Source: Progne subis subis (taxonomy: Eukaryota > Chordata > Aves > Passeriformes > Hirundinidae). From it: a stretch of 64,000 nucleotides of DNA. Shown here one piece after another: positions 3,510 to 62,726 of this stretch (position 1 is the first letter of the stretch; every line of letters begins with the position of its first letter). Where the stretch lies: the NCBI GenBank assembly GCA_022316685.1, contig JAKJHU010000385.1, forward strand, positions 62,001-126,000, in the 5' to 3' direction. The notes under the pieces were generated by a model. It was not told the DNA's origin and did not search any database. It saw only the letters and a list, made by a program, of their open reading frames with translations. A program made the translations under genes and the position numbers.

Positions 3510-3515
3510 TTTATT
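3510..3515 (-). terminator. Polyadenylation signal of paralogue A
   Basis: The minus strand reads AATAAA and overlaps the last base of the TAA stop codon at 3517-3515. The implied 3' untranslated region is very short. Confidence 0.5.
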
Positions 3516-11570: not shown

Positions 11571-11571
11571 A

Positions 11572-23736: not shown

Positions 23737-24978
23737 TTACTGGAGCCTCCGTTCATGTTGGATCAAGTGAGAGGTGTCAGAGAAGCTCTTCCCACACTGG
23801 GGACACTCGTAGGGCCTCTCCCCAGTGTGGATGCACCGGTGCCTGATGAGGGTGGACTTGTGCTTGAAGCCCTTCCTGCAGTCAGGGCAGCGGAAGGGCC
23901 TCTCCTCTGTGTGAATCTGCTGGTGCACGAGGAGAGTGGAGCTGGTCTGAAACCTCTTCCCACACTCGGGACCCTGGTAGGGCCTCTCCCCAGTGTGGAT
24001 CATTTGATGGATGATCAGTTGGGACCTCTGGTTGAAGCCCTTCCCACATTCCCCACACTTGTATGGCCTTTCCTCAGCGTGGATGTTCTGGCGACAGATC
24101 AAGTGGGAGCGCTGGCTGAAGATTTTCCCACACTGCTCACACTCGTAGGGCCATTCCCTGGTGTGGATCCTCTGGTGGCAGATCAGTCTGGACCTCTGGC
24201 TGAAGCTCTTCCCACATTCGTCACACTCGTAGGGCCTCTCCCCTGTGTGGATGCGCCGGTGCCTGATGAGGTGGGAGTTGTGCTTGAAGCCCTTCCTGCT
24301 GTCGGGGCAGCTGAAGGGCCTCTCCTCTGTGTGAATCCGCTCATGCTGGAGGAGATTGGAGCTGGTCTGAAACCTCTTCTGACACTTGGGACACTCGTAG
24401 TGCCTCTCCCCAGTGTGGATCCGCTGGTGTCTGATCAGGAGGCAGTTCCAGCTGAAGCTCTTCCCACACTCCAAGCACTTGTGGGGCTTCTGCCCATCAT
24501 GAGGCTGTTCAGGGACCACCATTTCAGAGCCCCGGGTGAAGCTCTGTCCACCTTCCTGGCACAGGGTGGGTCTTTCCTCCTCAGAGCACCCTGGGATGGG
24601 CTTGGAGCCCCTCAGTGTGTGAGATCTCTGGGGCTTTTCCTCCCTTTTGGATTCCTGCACCATGGAGCTGCTCAAAACCTGTTCCATGAGGTTCAGCTGC
24701 AGGGATTTGTCCTCCCTCATCTCCATCCTCAGCTCCTTGTCTGGGGGAGGAAGGACAAGGACAGGATGGGATTTGCCTCCATGCCACAGGGAAGAGGAAG
24801 GAGATCCCTCCAGTCCATTCCTGGCAGGAGGGCATTGGCAGCAGAGTTGTCCTGCAGCCAGGGGCCATGCTGGGCTGGGAGATGGAGCAGGAGAGAGGGG
24901 GAAAGGGGCACTGACTTCCTCCTCACCTGCCTGGCTGTCCTGGGGCATCTTTCTCTTCCTCACAGCCTTCTCCTCCAT
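23737..24978 (-). CDS. C2H2 zinc-finger protein, two exons, nine fingers
   Basis: The 413-codon open frame hides a small in-frame intron. Exon 1 is 24978-24927 (start [13 protein letters not shown]), the donor is GTGAGG at 24926, the acceptor CAG at 24743-24741, and exon 2 is 24740-23737. Without the intron, [11 protein letters not shown] follows exon 1, which is the usual start of this avian zinc-finger family. Nine C2H2 fingers follow from about codon 168 with TGER/TEER linkers. Four lack a zinc ligand: finger 3 (second Cys is Ser), finger 5 (first His is Arg), finger 7 (first Cys is Gly), and finger 9, which ends at HERRLQ before its last His. No KRAB domain is visible. It probably binds DNA in the nucleus, with five intact fingers. 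Target unknown. Confidence 0.8.
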
Positions 24979-29900: not shown

Positions 29901-30744
29901 TGTACTAAATGAAAATTTTTCATGCTAATTGTAATCGTATCAATATTTTAAAATATATATATTTTTAAGAATATTTGTGATAAAGTAGTAAAGGAAAAAG
30001 TAGGTGTGAGTAGTGTTACAAAGCAGATGGGCCCCTTGGCAGATGCTACATGAGGAAAATAAGATACAGGATGCAGTTTGAGATAAGCAAGAGTTTCAAA
30101 GCTGGATTGGCCAAAGCTGGGACTACTCCAAGGCAGGGAGATGGGCCCTTTGCAGATGTGATGGGATACAGGATGTCTTAAGATAGAACTGGCCTTGAGA
30201 TGGACAAAGTTGGGACTATTCCAAGGCAGGGAGTTTGGGTGGTGGTTTGATCCATGAAATAATTACTTCTTGGAACATAATGCTTAGTTATGTATAACAC
30301 AAAACTTATAGTGCACACACAACCAGTAAGGTGATTCATAGGATGTGAGGAAGATGCTGAGCCTTCATCTGAAGAAGACCACCAAAAAGCCAAGAAGACC
30401 CCCTAACAACAAGTGGAGCATGCGCTATGTAGTATAGTGACGTAGATTTTACAAATTGAAAATAGGAGATTCACAGGAAATATTAATGAATATGCATTAG
30501 CATACAGTATATAAGTTTAAGTTGGATTACATTGTTTTGTACATGAAGTAGGGAGAGAAACTCCCTTTAATACTCTGGTCGGTTTTGCTTATCCTTTAGT
30601 TGAACGTTGCTTATCTTTAATTAATCACTGCCAAATTTTTTTGTATATGCTTGATTATAAAATGCTACTTAAAAAAGATTGCATTGCTGCTAAATTCAAC
30701 TTTGTTGCTTATTAAAATAGACATATAGAGCTTCATTGATAACA
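29901..30744 (+). repeat. 5' LTR of class I provirus, copy 1
   Basis: It runs from TGTACTAAATG to ...GATAACA. TATATAAG lies at 30508-30515. U3 contains a degenerate tandem pair built on 'gggactactccaaggcaggga' (about 30096-30235), which copy 2 has in single form. The LTR is close to that at 39686-40524. Confidence 0.85.
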
Positions 30745-30747
30745 AAT

Positions 30748-31560: not shown

Positions 31561-33190
31561 ATGGGTCCAAAGAAAAGTAACTCCTTAGAACCAGGAGCTG
31601 CGAATTATGAAAGAAATTTACAATAGCCTGGTATAGCTGGGAACTGTGAGGGGGGTTCACAGAAGGGGAGCATCCCTCAGGACAGTCCATTGGGGATAAT
31701 GTTACGATTCTGGGATGCATGTGAATCCTGAAGAGGAAAAAGTAAGCAGAAAATTATTAATAATTGAATGTTTAAACGGACAAAGGAAATGATCTGGAAA
31801 GATAATTTATATTGGCCAAAGTTTGGACTGTTTGGAGATTGGATTTGCCAGTCTTTGAATTTGTATGTGAATTCAAAAGAACCTTTTGTTCAGGAAGAAA
31901 GCAAATATGCTGCTCTGTGGCTTCCCAGGGGAAAGGGTGAATTTGTCACTCAAAGGCAAGGAATCAAGGGTTTTCCATTCTATCCTTTACAAACCAGAGG
32001 GCAAGCAGCCAAAAAAGACAGACACGAGCCCTAGGATCCGTTAGATCACCTCCTACCCCCTTATAGGCAACCTAATCAGCCCGTTCAACCCCAAGCCCCC
32101 GAGGGTCCTCCTGTAAATGCAAACACACCCCCTATTCAGGAGGAGCCAGTAGCACATAGAACTAGAGGTGGGGGGATGGGGAGAAGTGATGATGGGGATG
32201 GGAAGCAAAAATGGAAGATGGACTACAGACGCTTAGAAAAGTTCCAATGGCAAACCCAGAACAGAGACCTATTGGTGATGGGAGTGTTCCCCTGAGCACA
32301 GGGGATGTCAGGGAGTTTAAGAAGGAGATGGGCAGGCTGCTAGAGGATCCTCTTGGAGAGGCAGAGAGATTAGATCAGTTCTTGGGGCCAAATATATACA
32401 CCTGGGTGGAACTGCAGTCTATCTTAGGAATCTTGTTTACAATGGAAGAAAGAGAAATGCTGAGACATTCAGGAATGAGGGTTTGGGATAGAGAATGTCA
32501 GGGGCCAGACCAGGAGGATCAGAAATGGCCTATGCAAGATCCAGGTTGGAATAATCAGAATGAAAGACACAGACAGAATAGGAGTGATCTCCGGTGGATG
32601 ATTATCCGAGGAATCCAGGAAGCAGTGCCCAAGGGGCAGAATATAAGGAAAGCTCTAAGTGAGCACCAAGGGAAGGATGAACCACTGGCACACTGGTTAG
32701 AAAGACTAAGAAAAGTCTTGGAGTTATATTTAGGTGTAGACCCCAACACTGCAGCAGGACAGGTCCTTTTGAAAACACAATTTGTAGCTAAGTCCTGCGG
32801 GCACATCAGGAAGAAGCTGGAAAAAGTAGAAAATTGGCACGATAGGGGGCTTCAGGAATTGTTAGGAGAAGCACAGAAAGTGTATGTGAGAAGGGATGAG
32901 GAGAGGCAAAAGACAAACCCACAGATTTTAATGGCAGCAGTCAAGGAAACACAGACAACCATGAATACAGAGAAACACTCAGGAAAGAAAAAACAAGAGA
33001 AAAAGGCAGGTCCACCTCTGGGGATATGAGATCCACGTGTTTTTCCTGTCACCAGAAAGGACATTTACAAACTTCTTGTCCTGCCTCTAGAAGAACAGGA
33101 CCCACTTGTTTTTATTGCCACAAAAAGGGACACCTACAAAAATTCTGTAGAAAGAGGCAGCAAGATGAGAAAATGTTTCAAGAGGACTAG
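31561..33190 (+). pseudogene. gag: gag of class I provirus, copy 1
   Basis: ATG at 31561 in a good context (gccaccaaaaATGG) starts Met-Gly, suited to myristoylation. A matrix of gammaretroviral pattern follows with three in-frame stops before 31768-32034. Next are a Pro-rich linker (LPPY-like, about 32050) and a long open capsid stretch (32211-33029). A one-base deletion near 33010, compared with copy 2, shifts the frame into nucleocapsid. There, two zinc knuckles are intact: CFSCHQKGHLQTSC (about 33039) and CFYCHKKGHLQKFC (about 33105). Gag ends at UAG 33188-33190. Confidence 0.85.
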
Positions 33191-35727
33191 GTGGGTCAGG
33201 GGCTCTGTTTAATGAGGACTGAACACCTAGAGGAGCCCTTGATAAAACTGAAAATAAGTCCTCAAAAGGAAGAAATCACATTTTTGGTGGACACAGAAGC
33301 TACTAGGTCCACAGTAAGAAAAATACCACAAGGATGTGAAGTAAGTCATGAACGTGTCCCTGCAATTTGGAATATAAAGTTTTTTAGGTTCCTGCAATTA
33401 AGAGTGCAGATTGAATTGGATAAAAAATTTGGACTGAATGATTTGTTATTACTATCAGAGGCTGATAGAAATTTATTAGGAAGGGACTTAATAATAACCT
33501 TGGGGATTAAAATAACACCCTGTGAAGGAAAACTTATAATCCGTTCCTTAACTGAAGATCATTTCGACATTAGCGACACAGTTTGCTATACTGGGGAAGC
33601 AGGAAAATTAAACATTCAGCCCATTAGCATTGAAATACAGAACCCAGAAATCCCCATTCGAGTAAAACAATATCCGATATCACTGGAAGGTCGGAAGGGA
33701 TTGAAACCGGTCGTTGAGAATTGAGTACATCAGGGGGTGTTGGAGTCCTGTGTGTCACCACATCATACCCCCATCCTGCCGGTAAAGAAGCCTGATGGTA
33801 GCTACCGACTAGTGCAGGATCTCAGAGCGGTAAATCAAAGAACCATTACCCGCTGTCCAGAAGTAGCTAAGCCAGATACCTCCTAATTACATTTGGTACA
33901 GTGTCATGGATTTAAAGGATGCCTTTTGGACTTGCCCTCTGGATGAGGGCAGTAGGGATTGCATTTGAGTAGGAGGACCCAGATACAGGTAGGAGAGAAC
34001 AATTAAGGTGAACGGTGCTACCGCAAGGTTTTACAGAGGCACCGAATCTTTTTGGGAGGGCATTAGAAAATCTTTGGAAGTCCTTTGAGTTACCCAAAGG
34101 AATTAAGCTGCTACAGTATGTAGATGATTTGTTAGTAGCAGGAGAAACTGAAGAGGAAACTAGAAAGGGTACTATTAAGCTTCTAAATTTTCTGGGAGAA
34201 AACGGGCTGGAGATATCAAAGTCAAAATTGCAGTTTGTAGAGTCAGAAGTGTGGTATTTAGGTCATTGTAAGTAAAAGTAAGCAAAAGTAAAAGTAAGCA
34301 AAAGAAAAAGCTAGACCGTGAAAGCGTTTCAGGAATAGTGAACATGGGACCACCAAAGTCTAAAAGAGAAATAAAGCTGGTTTTGAGTCGCTTGGGTTAT
34401 TGTAGGCAGTAGATAGAAGGGTTTAGCAGAAAAGTAAAATTTCTGTATCAGAAATTAACTACCAATTGCTTGAAATGGTCTGAAACGGATCAGGAAAATT
34501 CTGAGCAAGTTGAATAAGCCCTACTGCAAGCTCCTGTACTGAGTCTTCCCAGTTTAGACAAGCCTTTTCAATTATTAGTTAATACAGTTCATCAAACACC
34601 TTATGAAGTATTGACTCAAGATCGGGCAGGAAGCCAAAAGCCAGTAGGATATTATTCCAAATGATTGGATCCAATTAGTAAGAGTTGGCCAACATGCCTG
34701 CAAGCTCTGGTAGTCACTGCTGTGTTAGTAGAAGAAGCCTGAAAAGTAACCTTTGGGGCACCACTGGAAGTGTACACACCCATAATATTAGGGGAATCCT
34801 TGCTAAAGAGGCCAAAACATGGTTAACATAGCAGAATATTAAAATATGAGGCTATCTTGATAGACTCCTCTGAATTAGAGCTGAGAGTGACAAATATACA
34901 AAGCCCCACTCAATTCCTTTAGGGGACCCAGGGGAAGAATTAATACACGATTGCACAGAGGTCATAGAGTTACAAACAAAAATATGCCCAGATATGAGAG
35001 AACAAGAATTAAAAACAGAAGAAAAATTATTTATAGATGGATTATCCCCAGTGGCAAAAGGAAGAAGGAAATCTGGGTATGCCATAATTTGTGGAGAAAA
35101 ACTGGAAGTAAAAGAATCTGGTCCCCTTATAAGGCCCATCCTGCTCAGCACAAGCCTGTGAACTCTATGCATTATTCGGTGCATTGCTGTTATTAAAAGG
35201 ATCGAGAAGGGACCATATACAGCAACTCAAAATATGCCTTTGGGGTAGTGCACACATTTAGAAAAATTTGGAAAGAGAGGGGACTTATAAACACTCAAAG
35301 AAAAGGATTAGTGCACCAAGGATTGATAATTCAAATTCTTAAAGCTTTGAAGAGCCCAAAAAAGATAGCAGTGGTTCAGGTGAAAGGCCACAAGAGGGGG
35401 AGAAACATTAAAACAAGAAGAAACAATTTGGGTGATGATGAAGCTAAGAAAGCTTCCCTGAGGGAAAACAGCAATGTAATTATGACTTTTCAGGAAGCAG
35501 GAACACGAAATCAAACACCATATGTTTCTTTAGCAGAAGTAGAAGGCATGAAAAACCTAGGAGCAACTCTAAAAGAGGGACAATGGATTCTCCCTGACAA
35601 AACCACAGTTCGAACGGCAGAAAAAGGATAGACTCATGCTTCAAGGGTAAAAGCACCTATACCCAATAAAGACTGGAAAATTATTTAGACACCAGGAGAC
35701 CTGAAAGTAAAATTTAAAAAGGCTTAA
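33191..35727 (+). pseudogene. pol: pro-pol of class I provirus, copy 1, integrase core deleted
   Basis: After the UAG a protease opens (33191-33727), but its active site reads D-T-E-A (Glu codon 33296-33298), not the universal DTGA. Reverse transcriptase follows in broken frames with LPQGF (about 34019) and YVDD (34117-34128). RNase H-like sequence lies at about 35000-35470, including KGHKRG. Then, at about 35615-35632, the chain jumps directly to a short stretch like the far C-terminus of integrase (HASRVK), ending near 35727. The integrase HHCC domain and DDE core, roughly a kilobase, are absent. The same junction is in copy 2. Confidence 0.85.
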
Positions 35728-35820
35728 ATTTGATTTAAACTTTTTATTATAAAAAAGGTTTAATTTATTAAAAAACTGTGTCCTAAACAGTTTAAAGTAA
35801 AATTATAATTAATCCCCAAC

Positions 35821-36384
35821 ATGGCTGAACAGAGCATTTGGTGCCCAGAGGCTATAGCTCACCTGGAAAATAGTTTTTGGCTGTGGATTTCACATAATGC
35901 TGCAACAGATTTGGTGTGCCACCCACATATGGAAAGAATAACCCAGCCCCAGGATATTCAAGATATCCTTAGTACAGAAAGGTCAGAAGCTGCCATCCCA
36001 CAGAGAGAAGTTTCCATGTTTCAGCAAGGTTGCTGCAAACACGGTCATCAGTGTGAGCGGTGTAAAGCAGTGACCATGAAGTGGCTGAGACAAAGACATT
36101 GGCACAGAACAACTGTACCTTGGGACCAAAGCGATGTAGCTTTTATGATTAATTCTATACGATGTTTTAGTAGAGTAGAGCAAGACTTTAGAATGCACAA
36201 ATGGGTTTTAGCACAGATCAACATTGATACTTATGCCATAGAAGATCAAGTACAAAGAGCATTGATTTATTTAGCGTATCACATGGAACGATTAGTGGCT
36301 TTGAGAACACTGCAGGAACAACAAAGGATAATGAAAGTAAGATGTGGATGTAATAGGATACCCAGAAACAACAGAAAAAGGTAA
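35821..36384 (+). CDS. Accessory frame 1 of class I provirus (copy 1), Cys-rich
   Basis: A 187-codon open frame with an ATG in good context (caacATGG), lying between pol and env. It has acidic and Trp-containing N-terminal text (MAEQSIWCPEA), then GCCKHGHQCERCK (about residues 71-83), a possible zinc site, a basic Trp/His-rich stretch, an amphipathic region and a basic end. Sequence just past the stop in another frame reads CLTC, so the original protein may have been longer. I recognise no known retroviral protein; it is not dUTPase, integrase or env. Copy 2 carries it at 60163-59786, where it stops after 125 codons. It could be a regulator, a capsid- or host-factor-binding protein, or a captured gene; none is shown. 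Confidence 0.6.
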   Translation: MAEQSIWCPEAIAHLENSFWLWISHNAATDLVCHPHMERITQPQDIQDILSTERSEAAIPQREVSMFQQGCCKHGHQCERCKAVTMKWLRQRHWHRTTVPWDQSDVAFMINSIRCFSRVEQDFRMHKWVLAQINIDTYAIEDQVQRALIYLAYHMERLVALRTLQEQQRIMKVRCGCNRIPRNNRKR

Positions 36385-36443
36385 ATTGTCTTGCTTAACC
36401 TGTTCAGGTTATAAAACTCCTTTGATGGTTAACAATTAGAGGT

Positions 36444-37164
36444 TTGTGGTTTGTAATTGCAATTAACTTTAATTTATTAGAAAAATTAGGCATTCTGGAT
36501 TGGCTGTCAACAGCAACTCCATTGAGTTTGGAGGCAGAACAATGCCAATGGGAAGGGATCAGACACTTCCTTGATCAATGGGAACAGCCTGAACAGATTG
36601 AAAATCTTTTAAGAGACCCTGAGCAACTAACACTAACAGATTTCATTGAGGAACTACAATTCCAGAAAAAGAGACTGGAATCACCAGTTACTAAAAGAGT
36701 CCAAGAACAAGTAATGCACTGGGAGTGTACTAAGCATGGCTTAGAGTGTCGCCCATGGGTTTGTGTTATTTGTACACTTTGCCTTAATTTGTGGTGGAGA
36801 ATAACAAGAGAAGAAGAAAGAGACTTGTTTTACTTAATTGATTTAATTTCTTTAATTGATTTGTTTAACTTTCTTAGATTGCATTCGTGAACAGTTAACT
36901 TTAAAAAGACTCATCAGTGGTTTTTTTGGAACACCTTTGAGATATGAAGATGGAACCTTTTATGCAGCGGTTCAATTAATAGAAAATTTAGACCAATGAG
37001 TTTTTACTATATTAGCTTTTGAGCAAGTGAGAGAGCAAACAATTCATAGTATTATAGACCAGTGTATCGTAATTAACAGTTGCTGTGGAGAAGGAATTTG
37101 TGTGCCACGCTATAGACACATTTCTGATGTGAATTGGCATTGCGAGTGTGACTGTTGGTGGTGA
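36444..37164 (+). pseudogene. Accessory frame 2 of class I provirus (copy 1), Cys-rich
   Basis: Open from 36444 to 36890 without an ATG. An acceptor-like tttaatttattag at about 36469-36481 suggests it was reached by splicing. It begins helical, with LSTATPLSLE, and a run of Glu/Gln/Leu, then ECTKHGLECRPWVCVICTLC (about 36715-36790). After a frame change near 36830 related text continues to a Cys-rich end CECDCWW at 37164, with one internal stop near 37000. The C-x-KHG-x2-C pattern is shared with accessory frame 1, so the two may be ancient duplicates. Copy 2 has it at 59476-59087. Confidence 0.55.
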
Positions 37165-37383
37165 TGAAGACTAAATAAACTGTCCCTGACACCAGAGAAA
37201 AAAAGTGACCAACAAATCAAGTTGTTAACTGAAGGAGTGAAAAAGCAAATCTTATTGTGGTTGGCACATCTCTGGAGCTTTGGTTTAGACTAAAAGAGGA
37301 AGTAGCTGACTAACCCAGAGAGAGAGAGAGAGAGGGCAGTGCTGTGAGAACTGTGAGTGATCTGTGCCATCCTTGAAACAAAC

Positions 37384-39653
37384 ATGAGGCCAAGGGTACC
37401 AGTGAGACCAAAGGCACCAGTGACTAGATCCCAGGATATAAACTTTGCTGCCAAGAATCCTGACATCTTGGCCCTTGGCTGCAACACAAGGGGCCTTGAG
37501 GACGGTAGAAAGTCAAAACTCCTGAGGATTATTTTCACTGTGTTTGTGGTGATGCCCTTGGCAACTGGCCAAAACTATGGAGCCACTCTGGACAGAGTCC
37601 ATGAGAGAAGGGAATGAGCAACGCAGGAACAAACAAGAATAAAACAAGCAGCACAAGAGTGGGCAATGAGAGAACAATCTATGCAAAAACAAAGTCCCAA
37701 TAATGTTGATCCCTGTAATAAATGCCATCACTTCATATGGGTCAAGGGCAAGATGGAATTTGTGTTTGTGGCATATCCACATGTTAGTGCTGCCTGCTAC
37801 GATCACAGCAATTTTATAGATGTTTGTGTTAAAAATAGAAAAATGGATTGGGTATGGAAAACATTAGGATTCAATGGACCAGCTCCTTATCCTTATAGTG
37901 ATCAAATCTGTCCTAAGTATGATTTTTTTGTTGTTGTTTTGAGAAAGATGAGAATGGGAATGATCCAAGTATAGGTATAGGGGGTACAGCACTAAGGAAA
38001 AAGAAGAAAACCCAAAAGAAAACAAAGAAATATGTAAAAAGGGCATAGGGAAAGAATTAAAGGAACTAGATAAGCTGTATGAACAATTCAAACAGCAGTA
38101 TAGCCACTGGGATTTGACAACCTCAACTAAGAACCTTTTTGTAGCTTTGATGCAAGAAATTGCTATGGAATTAGGATTATCCAAATGCTGGATCTGTGGG
38201 AATGGCTGAAAGGTGGCTGTGGAGAGGTGAGAGTCTAGCTCCAGAACAATTTTTCAAATGGAATCATACTCAAATTTTCAAGACATTAAAACGACCTGAA
38301 GGATGGATTTTGAGTCATCAAGTAATTGGAACAGTCTGTATGACTCAAGAAGGAAGGAAATATAATAAAGTAGCAGGATATACTCCTTGTATATCTACTT
38401 TAGTAGTTAATTCGGATAATAAAACTAAGATCTGGCAACCAAAATCTTTTACTGGGTATTGGGGAATAACAAAGGAAATGAATTGTGAGTGGAAAAATCA
38501 AACTGATTTGTGATGGCATAAAAGTCCTGGAGCTAACCCCTACCAATCCAAAAAAAGTCCTAAAATTTACTGGGAACAACAAGAAAAAACAGACAGTAAA
38601 TGGAAAGCCCCTGATGGAATATATTGCATTTGTGGGCAATGAGCATAGAGTGAATTACCTCAAAAGTGGGAAGGAACCTGTACCTTAGGAGTTATACGAC
38701 CCTCCTTCTTTGTCATCCCAAGGTCTAGGAGCAATATGCTGGGAACACCACTTGATGAGACTCTGGAAAGGAATAAAAGAGATTTAGACCTCAACTTCCC
38801 AAAGGCAGGGGGAAACCAGGAATGGGGGGAAGAAGAATGGCCTGCAGAAAGAATCACAGCATATTATGACCCAGCAACTTAGGCTGAGGGTGGATCTTGG
38901 GGATATAGGACCCCAATTTATCTATTGAATCGGTGGATAAGACTCCAGGCAGGAGTGGAGGTTGTATCAAACCATACTTCTGATGCCCTAAAGTTACTGG
39001 CCAAGCAGCATTCACAAATGTGAGCATTTGTATATCAAACCAGAATTGCAATAGATTATCTGTTGGCTGAAGAAGGGGGAGTTTGAGGAAGATGTAACAA
39101 ATCTGAGTGCTGTGTGGAGAGAGATGATCATGGGGAAGCCATCACAAAACTTGCTGAAGAAATTAAAAGGGTGGCACACGTACCTGTTCAAAAGGGGAAT
39201 TCTATTCTAAAAATGGATTGGTGGGATAACCTCCTTGGAGGAGCCTGGTGGAAGAAGGTGGAATTTATGCTGTTATGTTCTGGATTAGGATTGTTATTCT
39301 TACCATGCATGATTCCATGTCTTCTTAGACTAATCCACCCAGTGATACAAGGAGTGTAAAATGACAGCAATGCCCATGGATCCAGAATTGGCAGCAAAAA
39401 GGAAACCAGATGCTTTGATGATATTAAAAGCTAAACTTACATTCAAAAGAAAGGACCCGAAGAGATGTTGACTGAACATAAAGAGACGACTGTTGCCCAA
39501 GAGATGTCAACCAAATTTGAGAAGGAATGCAAAAAGTTTGGTGAAGCATGGGAGATGTTAGAAAAATTAGAGGCTGAAATGAGAGAGCATGAAAACCTGG
39601 ATTATTTGGAATATAGAAGAAATCGAGATTCAGTATTAATTAAAAAGCATTAA
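37384..39653 (+). pseudogene. env: env of class I provirus, copy 1
   Basis: ATG at 37384 starts a protein with a long, basic N-terminal leader (about 45 residues) before a hydrophobic signal (LLRIIFTVFVV). SU runs in several frames to a CWIC motif (38186-38197) and on to about 38900. TM (about 38950-39357) has an immunosuppressive-domain-like stretch followed by a CX7CC-type motif whose first Cys codon is TGA, as in copy 2. A membrane anchor lies at about 39260-39330. In copy 2 the tail continues in frame for about 100 more residues with a charged heptad-rich segment; in copy 1 a TAA at 39357-39359 and a shift separate this tail (39465-39653). Confidence 0.85.
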
Positions 39654-39685: not shown

Positions 39686-40524
39686 TGTAATAAGTGAAAA
39701 TGATTTATGCTAATTGTAACTGTATCAATATTTTAAAAGTATTTACTTTATAAAACATTTGTTATAAAGTAGTAAAAGAAAAAGCAGATGTGAGTAGTGT
39801 TACAGAGCAGATGGGCCCCTTGGCAGATGCTACATGAGAAAAATCAGATACAGGATGCAGTTTGAGATAAGCAAGAGTTTCAAAGCTGGATTGACCAAAG
39901 CTGGGACTACTCCAAGGTCGGGAGATGGGCCCTTTGCAGATGTGATGGGACACAGGATGTCTTAAGATAGAAGTGGCCTTGAGATGGACAAAGTTGGGAC
40001 TATTCCAAGGTAGGGAGTTTGGGTGGTGGTTTGACCCATGAAATAATTACTTTTTGGAACATAATGCTTAATTATGTATAATACAAAACTTAGAGCGCAC
40101 GCACAATCAGTAAGGTTATTCATAGGAGGAGAGGAAGATGATGAGCCTTCCTCTGAAGAAGACCAACAAAAAGCCAAGAAGACCCCCTAACAGCAAGTGG
40201 AGCATGAGCTATGTAGCATAGTGACATAGATTTTAAGAATTGGAGATAGAAGGAGATTCATGAGAAATATTAATGAATATGTATTAGCATACAATATATA
40301 AGTTTAACTTGGATTACTTTGTTTTATACGTGAGGTAGGGTGAGAAGCCCTCCCTCCGTACCCTGGTCAGTTTTGCTTATGCTTTATCTAAACAGTACTT
40401 ATCTTTAATTAATCACTGCCCAATTTTTTGTATATGTTTGATTATAAAATGCTACTTAAATAAAATTGCATTGCTGCAAAATTCAACTTTGTTGCTTATT
40501 AAGTTAGACATATAGAGCTCCACT
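39686..40524 (+). repeat. 3' LTR of class I provirus, copy 1
   Basis: It starts TGTAATAAGTG after the polypurine tract and aligns with 29901-30730. AATAAA is near 40459. Its last 15-20 bases diverge into pyrimidine-rich repeat, so the exact end is unclear. Confidence 0.8.
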
Positions 40525-40612
40525 TAAAACCCTTCCTTCCTTCTTTCCATCCTTCCTTCCTTCTTTGCTTCTGTCTTTCTCTCTCATTTCTTTCTTTCTT
40601 TCTTTCCTTCTT
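40525..40612 (+). repeat. CTTC/CTTT microsatellite at junction of unit 1
   Basis: Imperfect CTTC, CTTT and CTCT repeats between the LTR and tandem unit 1. Confidence 0.8.
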
Positions 40613-42950
40613 GGAAGCAGGTACCCTTACCCTCCCAAAATCACTGCCCCTCCACCTCAGCCCTGCACAGGACAGTACTTTAAATTCAGCCTTCCCAATT
40701 TCACAGCAATCTCCCACAAGACACTTCCAGTTCTCAAAATTCCTAAAAGCACCAGCAGCCTTTAAAAACTGCTTCTTGCTTTCCCTCCCTCTACTCCCCT
40801 ACTCCATGAGCACACACGACCTCATCCCCTCACTGCAATCCCTACCCCTCCCAACTTTCCTGCCACCCTCACAGTGCAATTACACCCCAAATTACACTGC
40901 CCCATCCCATCCCATCCCATCCCATCCCATCCCATCCCATCCCATCCCATCCCATCCCATCCCATCCCATCCCATCCCATCCCATCCCATCCCATCCCAT
41001 CCCCTCTGGGCAGGAAGTCCCCCCCAACCAGCCCTTGCACACTTCCAGGGATTCCAGGCTGCCACAGCTTTTCCTCCCACTCTGTGCCAGGGCCCCACCG
41101 CCCTCCCAGGGAACAAGTCCATCCCCACATCCCAGCTCACCCTGGCCCCAAGCAGCGTCCAGCCATGGTCTGTGTCCTGGCGCTGCAGGCCCTTGGCAAG
41201 AGTCTCTCCCAGCCAGCAATTCCTGCTCTTCCCTGCTCTGGGGCAGCAGCTGCAAGTTGATTTGCTGCCGGGGCTCTGGCCCAGCCCCAAGCCAGGGCCG
41301 GGACCTTTCCCCAGAGCTCTGCCGGCACTGGCTCGCTTCGGCCGCAGCCCAGCAGCAGACGGAGCTCAGAGCTCCCCGGGGGCTGCGCCTCCTGCCCAGG
41401 GACAGCAGCAGGGGCAGCTGAGACTTCTGCCCCGGGGCCAGCAGGGAATGCACCCCAGGGAACGGCTGGGGCTGGGCCAGGCCAGCTGCGGGCTGGAGAC
41501 CAGCAAAAGCTTCTTCCCCTGCAGGGGCCTTGACCACTCACCAGGCTCCCCAGGGAATGGTCACAGCTTTGAGGCTGCCGCAGCTCCAGGAGCCTTTGGA
41601 CACCGCTCCCGGGAATGCCCAGGCTGCCACTCTTAGCCTGTCTGTGCAGGGCCAGGGCCTGTACTCCATGATCCCGCTGCCTCCCTCCCAGCTCAGCCCC
41701 TTCTGCAGTTCTCACCCTTGGGCTCAGCCTTTGTGCCTCCTCCAGGCACTGGCAGAGCTCTTGGGGCCGGGGCAGGAGCGGCACAGCCCCAGCGTTCCCC
41801 TCTCTGTGACACCACGGTGGTGACAGCTCCAACGTTCCCTGCCGGGAGACGCTCCAAGGGAAGTGTCCAGAGCCACAGCCAGACAGCAAAACTGAGCGGG
41901 CACTGAGCACCCCCGGCCTGGGCTGATGTGCATTGCTGTGCACACAGCTCGGGGAAGGTCCCCCTGGCCACCTCCACAGTGCCACAGGCAAGTGTCACAT
42001 AGAGTTACAGAGCTCTGCCCAGGGCTGACAGGAGGAGTTAATAAAATAACAAACAAAACTAAAACCATAACCAAATCCAAACAAAACACCCCAACGAAAA
42101 AAAAGAAAAAAACACAACCAATCAAAACCCAAAACAAACAAACTAATGAAATAAAACCCCACCAAGAAAAAGACAACTCCGCCCCCAGGAGAGCTGCTGC
42201 CTCTTTCAGTGCTTTCAGCTGCGCTCACACACAGCACTGAGACTGCAAGCAATGACCATTCCTCAGGCACATCTGCTGCAAAAGCAGCTTGAGGACAGCC
42301 CTGTAGCAGGACTCCTCTCATGCCAGTGAAAAAGGCCCCTTGGCAGGCAGCTCTAGAGCTCTTGCAAAGAGCAAGGGCCAGAGCCTCAGGCCACAGGGGA
42401 GAAAAGGGCTCTCAATTACCCGCCCCTGGCACATCAAGCCTGCTCCCAGGCTGCTTCCCACACAGCATTCCTCTGGAGGACTGTGGAAAGCTGAGAGTCA
42501 GCTCTGCCTTCTCCATGTTCTGTGCCCTGAAGCTGCCTGCAAGAGGAAATTCAGGCTCAGCTCCTGTGGCACAATCCCTCCTGGCCATGGGCACAGCTCT
42601 GGGAAGGTCGTTGCACAGCCAGCCTTTGCTGCAGCCAAGGAAAGCTCCTGGCTCAGGCTCAGCTTTACCCTGCCCATCCAGACCCCTCGTGTGCCCCAGC
42701 AGCAGGAAATTGCTGGATCTGGCTGATGGCAAACAGCTGCATCTGGAGTCCTGGCACCGGCAATGGACCAGATCTGGGTGGTGCCAGTGCTGGCGCTAGG
42801 AAATTGCCGCAGTTTGGCTTTTTGTGACAGCAAATTGCTGGACTTAGGCCGTGCCAGCACCGGGGCATTTCTGGATCTGGGCTCCGGCTTTGCCAGGAAA
42901 CACCAGATTTCAGGCTCCAGATGCTGAAAAACCTGATTTCTTTCTTTCTT
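40613..42950 (+). repeat. Tandem segment unit 1
   Basis: The first of three tandem units. Anchors shared by all three: 'ccagcccttgcacacttcc' (41030, 43421, 45460), 'aacaagtccatccccaca' (41112, 43504, 45546) and 'gagcctttggacac' (about 41590, 43757, 45800). Long open frames on both strands reflect GC-rich low-stop sequence and are not conserved in frame between units. Its 3' part (42341-42610) is the partner of low-copy repeat D at 13162. Confidence 0.75.
40901..41000 (+). repeat. (CCCAT)20 satellite-like tract
   Basis: Twenty perfect CCCAT units. In tandem units 2 and 3 the same place holds only non-repeated 'cc(a/g)tg'-like text, so the expansion is specific to unit 1. Confidence 0.95.
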
Positions 42951-50352: not shown

Positions 50353-51830
50353 TTGGAGAATGTTCAGGGTCTCCTGAATGTTAAAGACACCACCTCCCTG
50401 GTATTTCACCTAGTGACTTTCCTCTATATGGCTTATAGCTTTTCTAGAATGAGTCACACACTGCTAAACACTGTAGGGCAGCAGATAGAGGCAAGGGAGC
50501 AGGGAGATAAATCAGTCACTCAGGCTGCAGCCAACCCCACAGCTATTCAGGCTGCAGCTAAACCAGACAGTGAGGCTAAGACACCGGCAGTTGCTGCAGT
50601 AAAGAAGGGAAAGAAGCACACGGACAAAACCGATCGACCAGTAGACGATGATTCAGGTGAAGGATCCTCAATGCCTCCTGACACCCAGTCGGGAGTCAAA
50701 CCAACTGACACACAATCAGAAGCTGAAGCAACTGATGATACACAGTCAGAAGCTGAACCAACTGATACGAAATCAGAAGCCCAACCAACTGGTACAAGAT
50801 CGGAAGTCCAACCAACTAGCACACGATCAGAAGCCCAACCAGCTGCTACAAGATCAGGAGCCCTACCAACTGCTACAACATCAAGAGCCCGACCAACTGC
50901 TACAAGATCAGGAGATACTATTGAGTCCTTTTCCCTAAAGGACCTTCGTGACCTAAGAAAGGATTATACTCGACGACCTGATGAATCTATAATTATTTGG
51001 TTAGTCCGTCTTTAGGATGCTGCAAGCGAGGCTACAATACTGGATGGCACTGAAGCGAGACATCTTGGATCCCTATCACATGATCCAGTTATTGACCAAG
51101 AAATTATGAGGGAGGCTAGTCCTTGCAGTCTCTGGGAACGGGTCTTGAGAAGCGTGGCACAAAGATATCTGTGTGCCGACGATCTCTATCTGCAGCAAAC
51201 TCAGTAGAAAACTATTGAACAAAGGATTCAGTGCTTGAGAGAAATAGCAGTAGCGGAGATTGTCTTCTCAGATGACCTAAACACTAGGAACCCCGACTTG
51301 GTACCATGTACACCTGTAATGTGGCGAAAACTTGTACAACTTGGGCCACAAGAATACTCCTCTGCTTTAGCAATAATGAAGCGAGATGAGACAGAGGAGA
51401 CTGTGCTTGATATGGCAAAGAAGCTCCGAACATATGCAGATGCCGTGCATAGTCCAACACATGCAAGAATCGCAGCTTTGGAAACACAGGTGCGGGGATT
51501 AGCAGACAAAATAAAAGAGGATCTCAAACAACTCAAGGAGAACATTCTCCAGATCTCTGCAGTACAAGTTAGGGGCTCTGGCGCCACACGCAAACGTTCC
51601 CTAGATAGAGAGGGGAAAGGCATCCCACGGGCTAAGCTGTGGGTCCTCCTGCGTGAATGTGGAGAAAACATGAAAAGATAGGATAGAGAATCTACTAATG
51701 CTATGACACAACAGCTGCATGAATTGTTAGATAGCAAGACTGTGAGAAGAAGTTCTAGCAAGAAAGAAGCAGCTCCAGTTACCCAAAGAAATAAAGATAA
51801 TCAAGCTTAGAGGGGCCCTGCCTCTAGCCA
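50353..51830 (+). pseudogene. gag: gag of class III provirus with 9-residue repeats
   Basis: The first open stretch (50353-51015) has a helical N-terminal region, a Lys/Asp-rich linker and about eight tandem copies of a nine-residue unit of the form xPTxTRSEA (about 50698-50925). After a stop, capsid-like sequence continues (51016-51681, with an internal TAG near 51207) and ends in a coiled-coil-like, Lys-rich part. The start codon is not certain. Repeats of this kind are not a standard gag element. Confidence 0.65.
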
Positions 51831-51869
51831 GGTAGAGGTTAAAGAAAACCGTGTTTTTTACACTGTGTA

Positions 51870-52152
51870 GATTTGTTGGCCTGGCACATCAGAACCACAA
51901 AAATATAAAGCCTTAGTTGACACCAGTGCACAGTGCACATTACTCCCATCAAAACATGTGGGGGAAGAATCTGTTTCCATTGCTAGAGTGACAAGGAGTT
52001 CACAAGATTTTACTTTAGTGAAAGCTGATGTGAGCCTGACTAGAAATGAGTGGAAGAGACACCCTATTGTAACTAGCCCAGAAGCTCCATGCATTTTAGG
52101 CATAGACTTCCTCCAGAATAGCTATTACAAAGACCCGAAGGGATTTAAGTAA
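51870..52152 (+). pseudogene. pro: Protease of class III provirus
   Basis: An aspartic protease-like stretch with ALVDTSAQ at the active site (Ser in place of the usual Gly; about 51914-51937) and the ILGIDFL segment near 52095. A TAA at 52150-52152 separates it from reverse transcriptase. Confidence 0.65.
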
Positions 52153-52194
52153 GCATTCGGGATAGCAGCTGTAGAGACAGGAAATGTTAAGCAG

Positions 52195-53280
52195 TTGAAT
52201 ACCTTGCCTGGACTATCAGAGAACCCATCTGCTGTAAGTCTTCTGAAGGTAAAAAAGCAACAAGTGCCAATTGCCACTTCAACAGTGCATCGCCGACAGT
52301 ACAGAACAACTCGAGATGCTGTGATCCCCATCCACAAGATGATCCGTGAGCTGGAGAGCCAAGGGGTGGTCAGCAAAACCCACTCACCCTTCAACAGCCC
52401 CATCTGGCCTGTGCGCAAGTCTGACGGAGAATGGAGATTGACTATGGACTACCGTGCCTTGAACGAAGTGACTCCACCATTGAGCGCTGCTGTGCCGGAC
52501 ATGCTGGAACTCCAGTACGAGCTGGAGTCCAAGGCAGCAAAATGGTACGCCACTATTGACATTGCTAACGCATTTTTCTCCATTCCTCTGGCTGCAGAAT
52601 GCAGGCCTCAGTTTGCCTTCACATGGAGGGGCGTGCAGTACACCTGGAACCGACTGCCCCAGGGGTGGAAACACAGCCCCACCATCTGCCATGGACTGAT
52701 CCAGGCTGCACTGGAAAAGGGTGAGGCTCCGGAACATCTACAGTATATTGATGACATCATTGTGTGGGGAAACACAGAAATGGAAATGTTTGAGAAAGGA
52801 GAGAAGATCATCCAGATTCTCCTGAAGGCTGGCTTTGCTATCAAGAAGAGCAAAGTTAAGGGACCTGCTCGAGAGATCCAGTTTCTAGGAATAAAGTGGC
52901 AAGATGGAAGGCATCAGATTCCCACTGAAGTCATCAACAAGATCACAGCAATGTGTCCACCAACCAACAAAAAGGAAACACAAGCTTTCCTAGGCGCCAT
53001 AGGTTTCTGGAGGATGCGCATTCCTGAGTACAGCCAGATTGTGAGCCCTCTCTACCTGGTCACCTGCAAGAACGATTTCCACTGGGGCCCTGAACAGCAA
53101 CAAGTCTTTGCCCAGATCAAGCAGGAGATCGCTAATGCAGTAGCCCTTGGCCCAGTCAGGACGGGACCAGATGTGAAGAACGTGCTCTACTCAGCAGCCG
53201 GGAGCCATGGCCTGTTCTGGAGCCTTTGGCAGAAGGTGTCTGGGGAGACTCGGGGCCGACCACTGGGATTCTGGAGCTGA
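52195..53280 (+). pseudogene. pol: Reverse transcriptase of class III provirus, open
   Basis: A 361-codon uninterrupted stretch with the RT blocks in order: WRLTMDYRALN, TIDIANAFFSIPL, FTWRG...LPQGWKHSPTICH, and YIDD (52744-52755) followed by FLGI and the thumb region. The PQGWKHSPTI block and YIDD are typical of ERV-L/spuma-related RT. A TGA at 53278-53280 interrupts the link to RNase H; homologous text continues at once in the same frame (SYRGSKANSTPTEKEIL). Confidence 0.85.
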
Positions 53281-54090
53281 AGCTACCGAGGGTCCAAAGC
53301 CAACTCCACTCCAACAGAGAAGGAAATCTTGGCCACCTATGAAGGAGTTCAAGCTGCCTCAGAGGTGATTGGCACAGAAGCACAACTCCTGCTGGCACCT
53401 CGACTACCGGTGCTGGGGTGGATGTTTAAAGGAAAGGTTCCCTCCACTCATCACGCCACCGATGCCACGTGTAGCAAATGGATTGCCCTCATCACTCAGC
53501 GCGCCCGCATTGGAAACCCAAATCGCCCTGGGATTTTGGAGATAATTACAAACTGGCCGGAAGGTGAAAACTTTGGTCTCACAGATGAAGAGGAGCAGGA
53601 ACAAGTGAACACATGCTGAAGAAGCTCCACCATACAACCAACTACCAGCAGAAGAAACACGCTATGCTCTTTTCACTGACGGTTCCTGCCGCATCGTTGG
53701 GATGAACCGGAAGTGGAAAGCAGCCGTATGGAGCCCCACACGACAGGTTGCAGAAGCCACTGAAGGAGAAGGTGGGTCAAGCTAACTTGCTGAACTCAAA
53801 GCTGTTCAACTGGCCCTGGACATTGCTGAAAGAGAGAAGTGGCCAAAGCTCTACCTCTACACTGATTCGTGGATGGTGGCCAATGCTCTGTGGGGATGGC
53901 TGGACAGGTGGAAAAAAGCCAATTGGCAGCGTAGGGGAAAGCCAATCTGGGCTGCAGATGAGTGGAAGGACATTGCCACTTGGGTAGAGAAGCTACCTGT
54001 CAAAGTCCGTCATGTAGATGCCCATGTCCCCAAGAATCGGGCTAATGAGGAACACCGAAACAATGAGCAGGTAGATCAAGCTGCAAAGAT
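53281..54090 (+). pseudogene. pol: Connection and RNase H of class III provirus
   Basis: The connection domain is open to 53619. RNase H follows in shifted frames, with FTDGS-type text near 53672, a TDSW-type block near 53860 and the HVDAHVPKN block near 54010. At least two frameshifts are needed. Confidence 0.7.
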
Positions 54091-54992
54091 AGAGGTGTCA
54101 AAGATAGACTTAGATTGGCAACACAAGGGAGAACTGTTCCTAGCTCGATGGGCCCATGATGCCTCAGGTCACCAGGGCAGAGATGCCACCTATAAGTGGG
54201 CACGAGACCGAGGGGTGGATCTAACCATGGACAGTATTTCTCAGGTTATCCATGACTGTGAGACGTGTGCTACCATCAAGCAGGCCAAGCGGGTGAAGCC
54301 CCTATGGTATGGCAGGCGATGGTGCAAGTATAAGTACGGGGAAGCCTGGCAGATTGACTACATCACCCTTCCCCAAACCCGCCAAGGCAAGCGCTACGTG
54401 CTGACCATGGTGGAAGCCACCACTGGGATGGCTGGAGACCTACCCTGTGCCTCACGCTACTGCCCGGAACACCATTCTGGGCCTTGAAAAGCAAATCCTG
54501 TGGAGACATGGTACCCCTGAGAGGATTGAGTCTGACAACGGGACTCATTTCAAGAACAGTCTTATAAACACCTGGGCTAGAGAACATGGCATTGAGTGGG
54601 TGCACCATATTCCTTATCATGCGCAAGCAGCTGGGAAAGTTGAACGGTGCAATGGCCTGCTTAAAACCACTTTGAATGCACTGGGTGGGGGGACTTTCAA
54701 GAACTGGGAGATTAATTTAGCAAAGGCCACCTGGTTAGTGAACACTCGAGGTTCCACCAACCGAGCAGGCCCTGCCCAATCTGAGCCCCTGAGAACAAGA
54801 GATGGAGATAAGGTTCCAGTGGTACACATGAGAGGAATGGTGGGAAAAACTGTCTGGATTAATTCTGCCTCCAGCAAAGACAATCCCGCTCGTGGGGTTG
54901 TTTTTGCTCAGGGACCTGGCTGCACATGGTGGGTGATGCAAAAGGATAGAGAGACCCGCTGCATACCTCAAGGGGACCTTGTTTTTCGGTGA
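54091..54992 (+). pseudogene. pol: Integrase of class III provirus
   Basis: The HHCC zinc domain is present: WAHDASGHQG and CETC (about 54145-54280). The catalytic triad is visible: Asp in QIDYI (54355-54357), Asp in ESDNG (54534-54536) and Glu in GKVERC (54642-54644), with 35 residues between the last two, the canonical D,D35E. One frameshift near 54450-54485 separates the first Asp from the rest. It ends TGA at 54990-54992 with an intact C-terminal part. No env follows. Confidence 0.85.
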
Positions 54993-58639: not shown

Positions 58640-59480
58640 ATTGTTTCAAGGATGGCAGAGATTAATCACAGTTCTCACAGCACTGCCCTCTGTCTCTCTC
58701 TCTCTCTCTGGGTTAGTCAGCTACTTCCTCTTTTAGTCTAAACCAAAGCTCTGGAGATGTGCCAACCACAATAAGCTTTGCTTTTTCACTACTTCAGTTA
58801 ACAACCTGATTTGTTGATAGATTTTGCTCCGATGTTGGGGATTATTATTAAGTCTTCATTGCCAGAAATAGACACATTCACAATGCCAATTCACGTAAGA
58901 AATGTGTCTATAGCGTGGCACGCAAATTCCTTCTCCACAGGAACTGTCTATTATGATACACTGGTCTATAATATTATGAATTGTTTACTCTCTTACCTGC
59001 TCAAATTCATTGGTCTAAATTTGCTCTTAATCGAACTGCTGCATAAAAGGGTTCCATCTTCATATCTCAAAGGTGTTCCAAAAAAATCACTGAAAAAGCT
59101 TTTTTAAATTTAACTGTTCATGCACACCATCTAAGCAAGTTAAACAAACCAATTGTCTGTCTCTCTCTTCTGCTCTTGTTATTCTCCACCATGAATTAAG
59201 GCAAAGTGTACAAATAACACAAACCCATGGGCGACACTCTAAGCCATGCTTAGTACACTCCCAGTGTGTTACTTGTTCTTGGACTCTTTTAGTAACAGGT
59301 GTTTCCAGTCTCCTGTTCTGGAATTGTAGTTCCTCAAAGAGATCTGTTAGTGTTAGTTGCTGAGGGCCTCTTAAAATATTTTCAATCTGTTCAGGCTGTT
59401 CCCATTGATCAAGGAAGTGTCTAATCCCTTCCCGCTGGCGTTCTTCTGACTCCAAACTCAGTGGAGTTGCTGTCAACAGC
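58640..59480 (-). pseudogene. Accessory frame 2, copy 2
   Basis: Open 59476-59087 with the same ECTKHGLECRPWVCVICTLC block. After it, text reads LVCLTCLDG in the same frame, so the CLTC motif is in frame here. The remainder towards env (to about 58870) is broken by stops. Function unknown; see copy 1. Confidence 0.55.
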
Positions 59481-59619: not shown

Positions 59620-60163
59620 GGGTATCCTACTATATCCACATCTTAATTTTATTATGCTTTGTTGCTCCTGCAGTGTTCTCAAAGCCACTAATCGTTCCAT
59701 GTGATATGCTAAATAAATCAGTGCTCTTTGTACTTGATCTTCTATTATACTAAGTATCAATGTTGATCTGTGTTAAAAACCAATTTCACATTTTAAAGTC
59801 TCGCTCTACTCTACTAAAACATTGTATACAATTAATCATAAAAGCTGCATCTCTTTGGTCCCAAGGTACAGTTGTTCTGTGCCAATGTCTTTGTCTCAGC
59901 CACTTCATGGTCACTGCTTTACACCGCTCACACTGATGACCGTGTTTGCAGCAACCTTGCTGAAACATGGAAACTTCTCTCTGCGGGATGGCAGCTTCTG
60001 ACCTTTCTGTACTAAGGATATCTTGAATATCCTGGGGCTGGGTTATTATTTCCATATGTGGGTGGCACACCAAATGTGTTGCAGCATTATGTGAAATCCA
60101 CAGGTGAAAACGATTTTCCATATGAGCTATAGCCTCTGGGCACCAAATGCTCTCTTCAGCCAT
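59620..60163 (-). pseudogene. Accessory frame 1, copy 2
   Basis: ATG at 60163, MAEESIWCPEA start, 125 codons to a stop at 59786. It keeps the whole GCCKHGHQCERCK block. About a dozen residue differences from copy 1 over the shared part. Past the stop, homologous text continues towards 59620. Confidence 0.6.
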
Positions 60164-60255: not shown

Positions 60256-62726
60256 TTAAGTCTTTTTTAACTTTATTTTCAGGTCTCCTGGTGTCGAAAT
60301 AATTTTCCAATCTTTATTGGGTATAGGTCCTTTTACCCTTGAAGCATGAGCATAGCCTTTTCCTGCCATTTGAACTGTGGTTTTGTCAGGGAGAATCCAT
60401 TGTCCCTCTTTTAGAGTTGCTCCTAGGTTTTTCATGGCTTCTACTTCTGCTAATGAAAAGTATGGTGTTTGATTTTGTGTTCCTGCTTCCTGAAAAGTCA
60501 TAATTACATTGCTGCTTTCCCTCAGGGCAGCTTTCTTAGCTTCATCATCAGCCAAATTGTTTCTTGTTGTTTTAATCCCTCTCCCCCTTTGGTGTCCTTT
60601 CACATGAACCACTGCTATCTTTTTTGGGCTCTTCAAAGCTTTAAGAACTTGAATTATCAATCCTTGGTGCACTAATCCTTTTCTTTGAGTGTTTATAAGT
60701 CCCCTTTCATTCCAAATTTTTCTAAATGTGTGCACTACCCCAAAGGCATATTTTGAGTTGGTGTATATGGTCCCTTCTCGAACCTTTAATAACAGCAATG
60801 CACAGAATAATGCATAGAGTTCACAGGTTTGTGCTGAGCAGGACGGGGACCAGATTCTTTTACTTCCAGTTTTTCTCCACTAATTACGGCATACCCAGAT
60901 TTCCTTTTTCTGTCTACCAGTTGGGATGATACATCTACAAACAATTTTTCTCCGCTTTTTAATTCTTGTTCTCTCAAATCTGGGCATTTTTTTTTGTTTG
61001 TTTGTTTGTAACTCTATTACCTCTGTGCAATCATGTATTAATCATGTATTAATCATATATTAAATCAAGATAGCCTCATATTTTAATATTCTGCTATCAG
61101 TTAACGATGTTTTGGTCTCTTTAGCAAGGATACCCCTAATATTGTGGGGTCTGTACAAGCCCAGTGGTGCCCCAAAGGTTACTTTTCAGGCTTCTTCTAC
61201 TAACACAGCAGTGGCTACCAGAGCTTGCAGGCATGTTGGCCAACTCTTACTAATTGGATCCAATAATTTGGAATAATATCCTACTGGCTTTCGGCTTCCT
61301 GCCCAATCTTGAGTCAACACTACATAAGCTGTTTGATCAACTCTATTAACAAATAATTGAAAAAGCTTGTCTAAATTGGGAAGACTCAGTACAGGAGCTT
61401 GCAGTAGGGCTTCTTTAACTTGCTCAAAATTTTCCTGATCCCTTTCATCCCATTTCAAGTGATTGGTAGTTAATTTCTCATATAGAAATTTTACTTTTCT
61501 ACTAAACCCTTCTATCTCTTTCCTACAATAACACCAAAGACTCAAAAACTGCTTTATTCCTCTTTTAGACTTTTGGGTCCCATGTTCAATATTCCTGAAA
61601 CCCTTTCAGGGTCTAGCTTTTTCTTTTGTTTACTAACCCAATGACCTAAATACCACACTTCTGACTCTACAAACTGCAATTTTGACTTTGATATCTTCAG
61701 CCCGTTTTCTCCCAGAAAATTTAGAAGCTTAATAGTACCCTTTCTCGTTTCCTCTTCAGTTTCTCTTGCTACTATCAAATCATCTACATACTGTAGCAGC
61801 TTAATTCCTTTGGGTAACTCAAAGGACTCCCAAAGATTTTCTAACGCCCTCCCAAAAAGATTCGGTGCCTCTGTAAAACCTTGCGGTAGCACCGTTCACC
61901 TTAATTGCTCTCTCCTACCTGTATCTGTGTCCTCCTACTCAAAGGCAATCCCTACTGCCCTCATCCAGAGGGCAAGTCCAAAAGGCATCCTTTAAATCCA
62001 TGACACTGTGCCAAATGTAATTAGGAGGTACCTGGTTTAGCTACTCCTGGAAAGCGGGTAATGGTTCTTTGATTTACCGCTCTGAGATCCTGGACCAGTC
62101 GGTAGCTACCATCAGGCTTCTTTACCGGCAGGATGGGGGTATGATGTGGTGACACACAGGACTCCAACACCCCCCTGATGTACTCAATTCTCAACGACTG
62201 GTTTCAATCCCTTCCGACCTTCCAGTGATATCGGATATTGTTTTACTCGAATGGGGATTTCTGGGTTCTGTATTTCAATGCTAATGGGCTGAATGTTTAA
62301 TTTTCCTACTTGACCAGTATACCACACAGTGTCGCTAATCTCGAAATTATCTTCTTTGGTTAAAGACTAGATTTTAAATTTTCCTTCACAGGGTGTTATT
62401 TTAATGCTCAAGGCTATTATTAAGTCCCTTCCTAATAAATTTTTATCAGCCTCTGGTATTAATACCAAATCATTCAGTCCAAATTTTTTATCCAATTCAA
62501 TCTGCACATTTTAAATTACAGGAGCCAGAAGAACTTCTCCTTTAACTCCAATTCCTGGGACACGTTCACAACATACTTCACATCCTTGTGGTAGTTTTCT
62601 TACTATCGACCTAGTAGCTTCTGTGTCCACCAAAAATGTGATTTCTTACTCTTGAGGACCTATTTTCAGTTTTATCAAGGGCTCTTCTAGGTGTTCAGTC
62701 CTCATTAAATAGAGCTCCTGACCCCC
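60256..62726 (-). pseudogene. pol: pro-pol of class I provirus, copy 2, integrase core deleted
   Basis: Follows the UAG at 62729-62727. The protease site is again D-T-E-A (Glu codon 62621-62619), and a TGA at the end of the protease is the same as in copy 1. RT has an open stretch 61892-61554 with LPQGF and YVDD, then 61545-61186. RNase H lies at about 60980-60430. The jump to the C-terminal integrase scrap (HASRVK) at about 60375-60345 is at the same place as in copy 1. Confidence 0.85.

Follow-up and report, generated by a model that had tools for sequence, protein, structure and literature searches.

Accessory genes are typically few or absent in retroviruses with a gamma-type Env, with the exception of deltaretroviruses (PMC9967133), and the question raised by this locus is what occupies the interval between pol and env in two related endogenous retroviruses (ERVs) of Progne subis subis. 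Both copies lie in the window, that is, the whole stretch of 64,000 nucleotides analyzed here. The spacing of about 1.65 kb and the two Cys/His-rich frames that a sequence-only reading had placed in it hold at their coordinates in both proviruses. The block in copy 1 (35728-37383, plus strand) aligns to 60255-58641 of the minus strand in copy 2 with 88.9% identity, gaps included. We propose, with a probability of roughly 60%, that this block represents what is left, after decay, of the accessory region of a class I retrovirus that was once complex, whose genes would have encoded zinc-binding proteins with regulatory or host-directed roles. The features on which the argument depends are collected in Table 1.

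Table 1 Features of the two proviruses and of the block between pol and env (positions in the window)
Feature	Position	Strand	Remarks
5' LTR, provirus 1	29901..30745	+	end approximate; 89.6% identity to 39686-40519
gag, capsid (p30) part	32211..33029	+	Gag_p30 PF02093 E 1.4e-19, above Pfam cut-off
Nucleocapsid, two CCHC zinc-knuckle-like motifs	33038..33148	+	read by eye
Protease frame and its in-frame continuation	33191..33724	+	PF00077 E 7.5e-05, above cut-off
RT piece	34015..34275	+	RVT_1 E 1.4e-16
RNase H C-terminal part and short remainder to pol stop	35248..35727	+	copy 1 RNase_H E 0.0019, below cut-off
Candidate splice acceptor before ORF1	35771..35790	+	rank 65/847 AGs in provirus; 20 nt identical in copy 2
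ORF1, 187 aa	35821..36384	+	Cys/His-rich core GCCKHGHQCERC at 36028-36063; from ORF list and Markov null
Candidate splice donor, ORF1 end	36381..36382	+	rank 10/431 in copy 1; lost in copy 2
Candidate splice acceptor before ORF2	36388..36407	+	rank 10/847, best in block; AG conserved in copy 2
ORF2, 148 aa in its present form	36444..36890	+	listed from TTG; C-terminus out of frame
ORF2 C-terminal stretch, other frame in copy 1	36880..36999	+	matches C-termini of P0001 and P0002
Cysteine-rich stretch, possibly a third ORF or exon	37000..37164	+	no in-frame ATG; partly kept in copy 2
env	37384..39653	+	broken by stops and frame changes, several common to both copies; read by eye
3' LTR, provirus 1	39686..40530	+	end approximate; paired with 5' LTR
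Copy 2 ORF2, listed open part	59087..59476	-	tblastn traces it from 59533
Copy 2 ORF1	59786..60163	-	125 codons open, then stop
Copy 2 RNase H and pol end, single open frame	60256..60798	-	RNase_H E 3e-10

Provirus 1 is bounded by its two LTRs on the plus strand and has gag, protease, an RT piece and an RNase H piece inside. The minus strand carries copy 2, which extends from about 55773 up to the window end and is truncated there, its 5' end falling outside the window. The sequence-only reading had assigned these elements to class I, and the Gag p30 domain (E = 1.4e-19) and the top PDB matches of RT and RNase H support both copies being class I (gammaretrovirus-like) ERVs. The best match of the RT piece is a p80 entry (one titled reverse transcriptase/ribonuclease H p80; E = 3e-12), along with an MMLV RT entry (E = 5.7e-12). 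Residues 8-96 of the 180 in the copy 2 RNase H frame match a p80 entry best (E = 4.8e-17) and an XMRV RNase H entry with E = 9.6e-09. The second CCHC motif of the nucleocapsid, the one put to Pfam, reaches zf-CCHC at E = 0.11, below the cut-off.

The two copies are both defective. They are 92.7% identical across 7264 ungapped internal columns, and the three LTRs in the window (both of copy 1 and the 3' LTR of copy 2) share 90.0, 91.3 and 90.4% pairwise identity over 542 columns. The private differences of these LTRs (22, 27 and 20) draw a star, a pattern that would fit two separate insertions from near-identical sources. Since the copies differ about as much as the LTRs do, most of their differences represent decay after insertion. 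The dN/dS comparison advocated by the sequence-only reading could be made between the two window copies and gave values of 0.6-1.5 throughout the nine regions compared (among them pieces of gag and pol; two of the regions overlap in ORF1). As nearly all the divergence is post-insertional, ratios near 1 everywhere say little for or against any gene; the gene question is left undecided by them, gag and pol giving the same picture. The differences between copies are unevenly distributed (variance/mean = 3.41 in 70 windows of 100 nt). Between 32211 and 39610, four 100-nt windows contain no substitution and others contain up to 27.

The pol frame of copy 1 stops with a TAA at 35725-35727, and an aligned TAA is found in copy 2, where the open frame comprises RNase H and then 84 more residues up to this common stop. 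Integrase is a protein of several hundred residues. The 84 residues left after RNase H, and the lack of any integrase among the pol pieces of either copy scanned with Pfam, imply that both copies have lost most of the integrase; the stretch upstream of the block had rightly been called an integrase remnant, even if most of the protein is absent. Searches for the integrase termini with two short copy 2 pieces gave neither a PDB match up to E = 10 nor a Pfam family. The motif AHASRVK at the pol end is presumably the C-terminus of a class I pol. The block begins after the pol stop codon and the integrase gap lies upstream of that stop; with AHASRVK read in this way, the block comes after the genuine end of pol and does not fill the integrase gap.

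Evidence for a gene in the block comes from ORF2. Two relatives of this frame, P0001 and P0002, were found among 5.8 billion proteins (168 and 165 aa; E = 1.3e-54 and 4.7e-46; 72% and 61% identity over 86% and 84% of the query). P0001 stands for three sequences on three contigs, the longest of 1833 bases, and P0002 for a single sequence on a 1034-base contig. Both relatives, available as protein sequences only, extend past the point where the window copies leave the frame (from 36880 in copy 1), and their continuation into another frame indicates that ORF2 has lost its frame at the C-terminus in both copies. Neither copy has an ATG at the listed start: copy 1 begins with TTG and its first in-frame ATG is residue 92. 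In P0001 numbering, the two relatives agree at Cys 95, 102, 110, 113, 132 and 135 and at His 98, and position 107 carries a Cys in one sequence and a His in the second, giving the pattern C-x2-H-x3-C-x4-[CH]-x2-C-x2-C-x18-C-x2-C. A RING/FYVE-type cross-brace zinc finger calls for eight ligands, in four pairs with the spacing of the family, and for a profile match. Eight Cys/His places are present in the relatives; the corresponding Pfam matches (FYVE, E = 0.042; zf-C3HC4, E = 0.79) concern P0002 only and are both below the cut-off. In the fully filled columns of the four-row ORF2 alignment, 9 of 17 C/H/W columns are invariant versus 38 of 110 others, a comparison given without a significance figure. 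A profile search over 2653 candidates yielded no further relative, nor did the ORF2 alignment find any in viral or GTDB contigs, and the eight PDB matches of the profile (E = 0.79 or worse) include no viral accessory protein. On the basis of the two outside relatives, the data support the view that ORF2 is a genuine protein-coding gene belonging to a real protein family.

The case of ORF1 is built differently. This frame had been described as open for 187 codons with a good ATG context, and both points stand: its context, AACATGG, is strong by the start-context rule, and ATG frames in 3000 first-order, composition-matched Markov sequences (forward frames only) reach at most 138 codons, with 187 or more in none of the 3000. 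The start and the TAA stop are common to both copies, copy 2 being broken at codon 126 and changing frame later. Its length, the frame and stop found in both copies and its codon usage make the coding nature of ORF1 partly supported. No relative emerged from the 5.8 billion proteins, where none of seven candidates had E = 1 or better; ORF2 is the sole positive control of that database. ORF1 had no relative in viral contigs, its copy 2 version had none in GTDB contigs, and its sequence matched a single unrelated PDB chain (E = 0.85). Since gag and the RNase H piece were equally blank as viral-contig queries, these contigs are a poor place to look for such elements and the silence of ORF1 there means little; the viral and GTDB scans start from six short peptide patterns at most and can detect none but close relatives. 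Across the 7264 columns, the longest run without a substitution between the copies (131 nt from 36001) spans the Cys/His core of ORF1, and exceeds the simulated expectation (n = 1000; median 86 nt, 95% point 122 nt). Nevertheless, runs of 124 nt from 37498, near the env leader, and 123 nt from 32593, in gag, show that it is not unique.

That neither frame could be matched to a known family held true for Pfam, which returned none at cut-off for the copy 1 frames, copy 2 ORF1, P0001 or P0002. The scans covered E-values up to 1 for ORF1 of copy 1 and up to 10 for that of copy 2, with filters that discard most matches above E = 0.1. Pfam contains the lentiviral Vif, Vpr and Tat, deltaretroviral Tax and foamy Bel families, and none of them was listed for ORF1, ORF2, P0001 or P0002. 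No published description of the block was recognized in the open-access literature, Repbase lying outside this search. A codon-usage score trained on the gag, pro, pol and env pieces of this provirus peaks in the ORF1 and ORF2 frames of both copies; it is a weak measure, as the wrong frame won in four of eight known pieces when each was left out. A third cysteine-rich stretch (37000-37164) may possibly be another gene or exon: in copy 1 its later part reads QCIVINSCCGEGICVPRYRHISDVNWHCECDCWW, and in copy 2 it has a stop, a gap and fewer cysteines, with a higher codon score in another frame.

The ranked splice sites are candidates and serve as leads only. The candidate acceptor ending at 36407 lies 37 nt upstream of the listed ORF2 start. 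An acceptor near 36481, which the sequence-only reading had singled out, did not fare well in this ranking, as it stands at 158/847 and is thus weaker than the one at 36407 (10/847). The candidate acceptors before ORF1 and ORF2 are both outranked by other sites of the provirus, which counts against accessory genes.

Several scenarios may explain these observations. If the block is a decayed accessory region, it would have held at least two genes for small proteins of about 190 and 170-180 aa, perhaps with the third cysteine-rich stretch in addition. Each protein would combine a helical part with a Cys/His cluster, probably zinc-binding, and would probably be produced from spliced mRNAs with acceptors just upstream of each frame. 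From the clustering of cysteines and histidines and the position of the frames, we infer that the products may have acted as other retroviral zinc-binding accessory proteins do, as adaptors or regulators of host factors or of viral transcription. The frames, their position downstream of pol and the similarity between ORF2 and two outside sequences are direct observations, and zinc binding, splicing and a regulatory or host-directed function are what they would suggest. The AlphaFold models are too poor to be used (mean pLDDT 39.1 for the ORF2 relatives and 40.7 for ORF1), so that zinc binding receives no support from the fold and the helical part rests on these same models. Other points weigh against accessory genes: ORF1 has no relative, ORF2 has only two on short contigs and lacks an ATG at its listed start, dN/dS is near 1 in all regions, half of the codon-usage controls (four of eight) failed and other long identical runs exist. 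The complex class I lineage proposed by the sequence-only reading is supported as far as the class and the extra gene ORF2, with its two relatives, are concerned, and is less secure for ORF1, which has no outside relative.

A version of the accessory-gene explanation, rather than an alternative to it, is that ORF1 and ORF2 are diverged tandem duplicates of one gene. Duplicated accessory genes have precedents in vpr/vpx and in the OrfA/OrfB pair of walleye dermal sarcoma virus (WDSV). A KHG-x2-C core is present in both frames after a stretch modelled as helices, and a collinear local alignment joins residues 2-113 of ORF1 to 31-135 of ORF2 with a score reached by 18 of 4000 ORF1 shuffles and 1 of 1000 ORF2 shuffles; nearly the same alignment is obtained with P0002 (180/4000 and 19/1000 shuffles). 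Yet P0001 does not give it (848/4000 and 139/1000), and a four-sequence ORF2 profile scores ORF1 at -1.0 bits, a value reached by 1025 of the 1804 shuffles reported out of 2000 made. Likewise, hhalign finds 10 columns (E = 0.059, probability 0.9%) and BLASTP aligns nine residues of ORF1 with P0002 (E = 0.11). A common origin of the two frames thus appears rather unlikely, albeit worth keeping in mind. A more ambitious proposal is that a class I lineage independently evolved a lentivirus-like cassette between pol and env. Its two or three zinc-binding proteins, a pair of which would stem from tandem duplication, would represent families not described from any other virus. This proposal is tentative and on balance doubtful.

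Alternatively, the block could be a segment of host mRNA captured by one ERV lineage, in which case the frames would be decayed pieces of a host protein devoid of any viral role. Such capture is documented: PMC4299795 describes crocodilian ERVs that acquired KIT-ligand and nectin3, and states that capture usually deletes part of the viral coding domains. The absence of most of the integrase here and the lack of any viral family match would be congruent with this origin, and it has to be considered that the protein database may not hold the complete set of bird proteins in which a host match would be sought. Nevertheless, the integrase gap lies upstream of the pol stop codon and not at the block, and distinct short frames, spaced by short gaps and accompanied by acceptor-like sites, do not resemble a single mRNA. 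Moreover, Pfam gave nothing above cut-off. No PDB match was better than E = 0.79. The extra frames of the crocodilian ERVs are recognizable host genes (PMC4299795). A host capture seems improbable.

The frames might also be open by chance in a spacer that codes for nothing, or be fragments of pol or env. The location of the block in a defective element, the lack of an outside relative of ORF1 and dN/dS values near 1 agree with such an origin, but the frames are long for the Markov null (only 3 of 3000 sequences, forward frames only, have a stop-to-stop frame of at least 148 codons), no Pfam integrase, RT or Env family is listed for either frame, and the block is flanked by the pol stop on one side and the env leader on the other. 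The relatives of ORF2 leave chance strongly disfavored for this frame, and very little probability remains for the explanation as a whole. Least credible of all is that the host kept the core of ORF1 as a co-opted gene at one or both loci: the 131-nt identical run and the intact frame of copy 1 are what would be expected, but runs nearly as long at 37498 (124 nt) and 32593 (123 nt), the stop in copy 2 and the plausibility of a luckily intact frame at such divergence argue against it.

A decayed accessory region may be compared with known systems. The Gag p30, the RT and RNase H matches to p80, MMLV and XMRV entries and the env motifs read by eye liken these elements to gammaretroviruses and class I ERVs; unlike these, about 1.65 kb and two extra frames part pol from env here. 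Lentiviruses have vif, vpr/vpx and tat between pol and env. The position and size of the extra genes and the Cys/His clusters are reminiscent of theirs, but gag and pol are class I here and no lentiviral accessory family was listed by Pfam. The extra genes of WDSV sit elsewhere than between pol and env, a difference from the present block, and no family of this kind was listed by Pfam for its frames. The epsilonretroviruses to which WDSV belongs are nonetheless similar in being grouped with class I and in carrying accessory genes, Orf1, 2 and 3, as stated in PMC1224870, which also presents the recognition of unknown accessory genes in ERVs as a difficult problem. OVEX1 of chicken is likewise an avian ERV, but its three ORFs are gag, pro-pol and an env-like third according to PMC2717909. 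If true, a class I lineage with its own cassette would mean a renewed origin of complexity within class I, and would offer new probes for host factors; the two frames suggest that, in a virus group noted for its simple genomes, one lineage formerly possessed additional genes of a regulatory or host-directed kind.

An env-like ATG at 37384 immediately follows the block. The long leader, a CWIC motif and an immunosuppressive-domain-like stretch are presumably env features, named here after familiar motifs. The env pieces scanned matched no Pfam family above cut-off, and a copy 2 piece had a single unrelated PDB match (E = 0.76). In the transmembrane part read by eye, the immunosuppressive-like stretch is followed by a CC pair; the place of the first Cys reads as a stop in both copies, and the spacing would be 7, versus CX6CC. 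In-frame stops at 37615, 37972, 37978, 39021 and 39084 are common to both copies, suggesting either a common source whose env was already disrupted or parallel decay. The leader frame (37384-37614; 77 codons) has a basic N-terminus and a long signal-like stretch, and differs by three substitutions in its 77 codons between the copies, among the least diverged parts.

Other elements surround the two proviruses. An array of CCCAT units occupies 40901-41000, about 0.4 kb past the 3' LTR. Another ERV fragment at 10789-12741 has, by eye, a gag-like frame and an env transmembrane frame with a CX6CC-like motif, and a further ERV near copy 2 (50353-54992) contains RT-, RNase H- and integrase-like frames of another type, again by eye. 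Near-identical frames read by eye at 1873-4838 and 6420-8761 have opposite orientations and probably form an inverted segmental repeat. Finally, inspection by eye revealed an olfactory-receptor-like frame at 13785-14717 and a C2H2 zinc-finger-like frame at 23737-24978.
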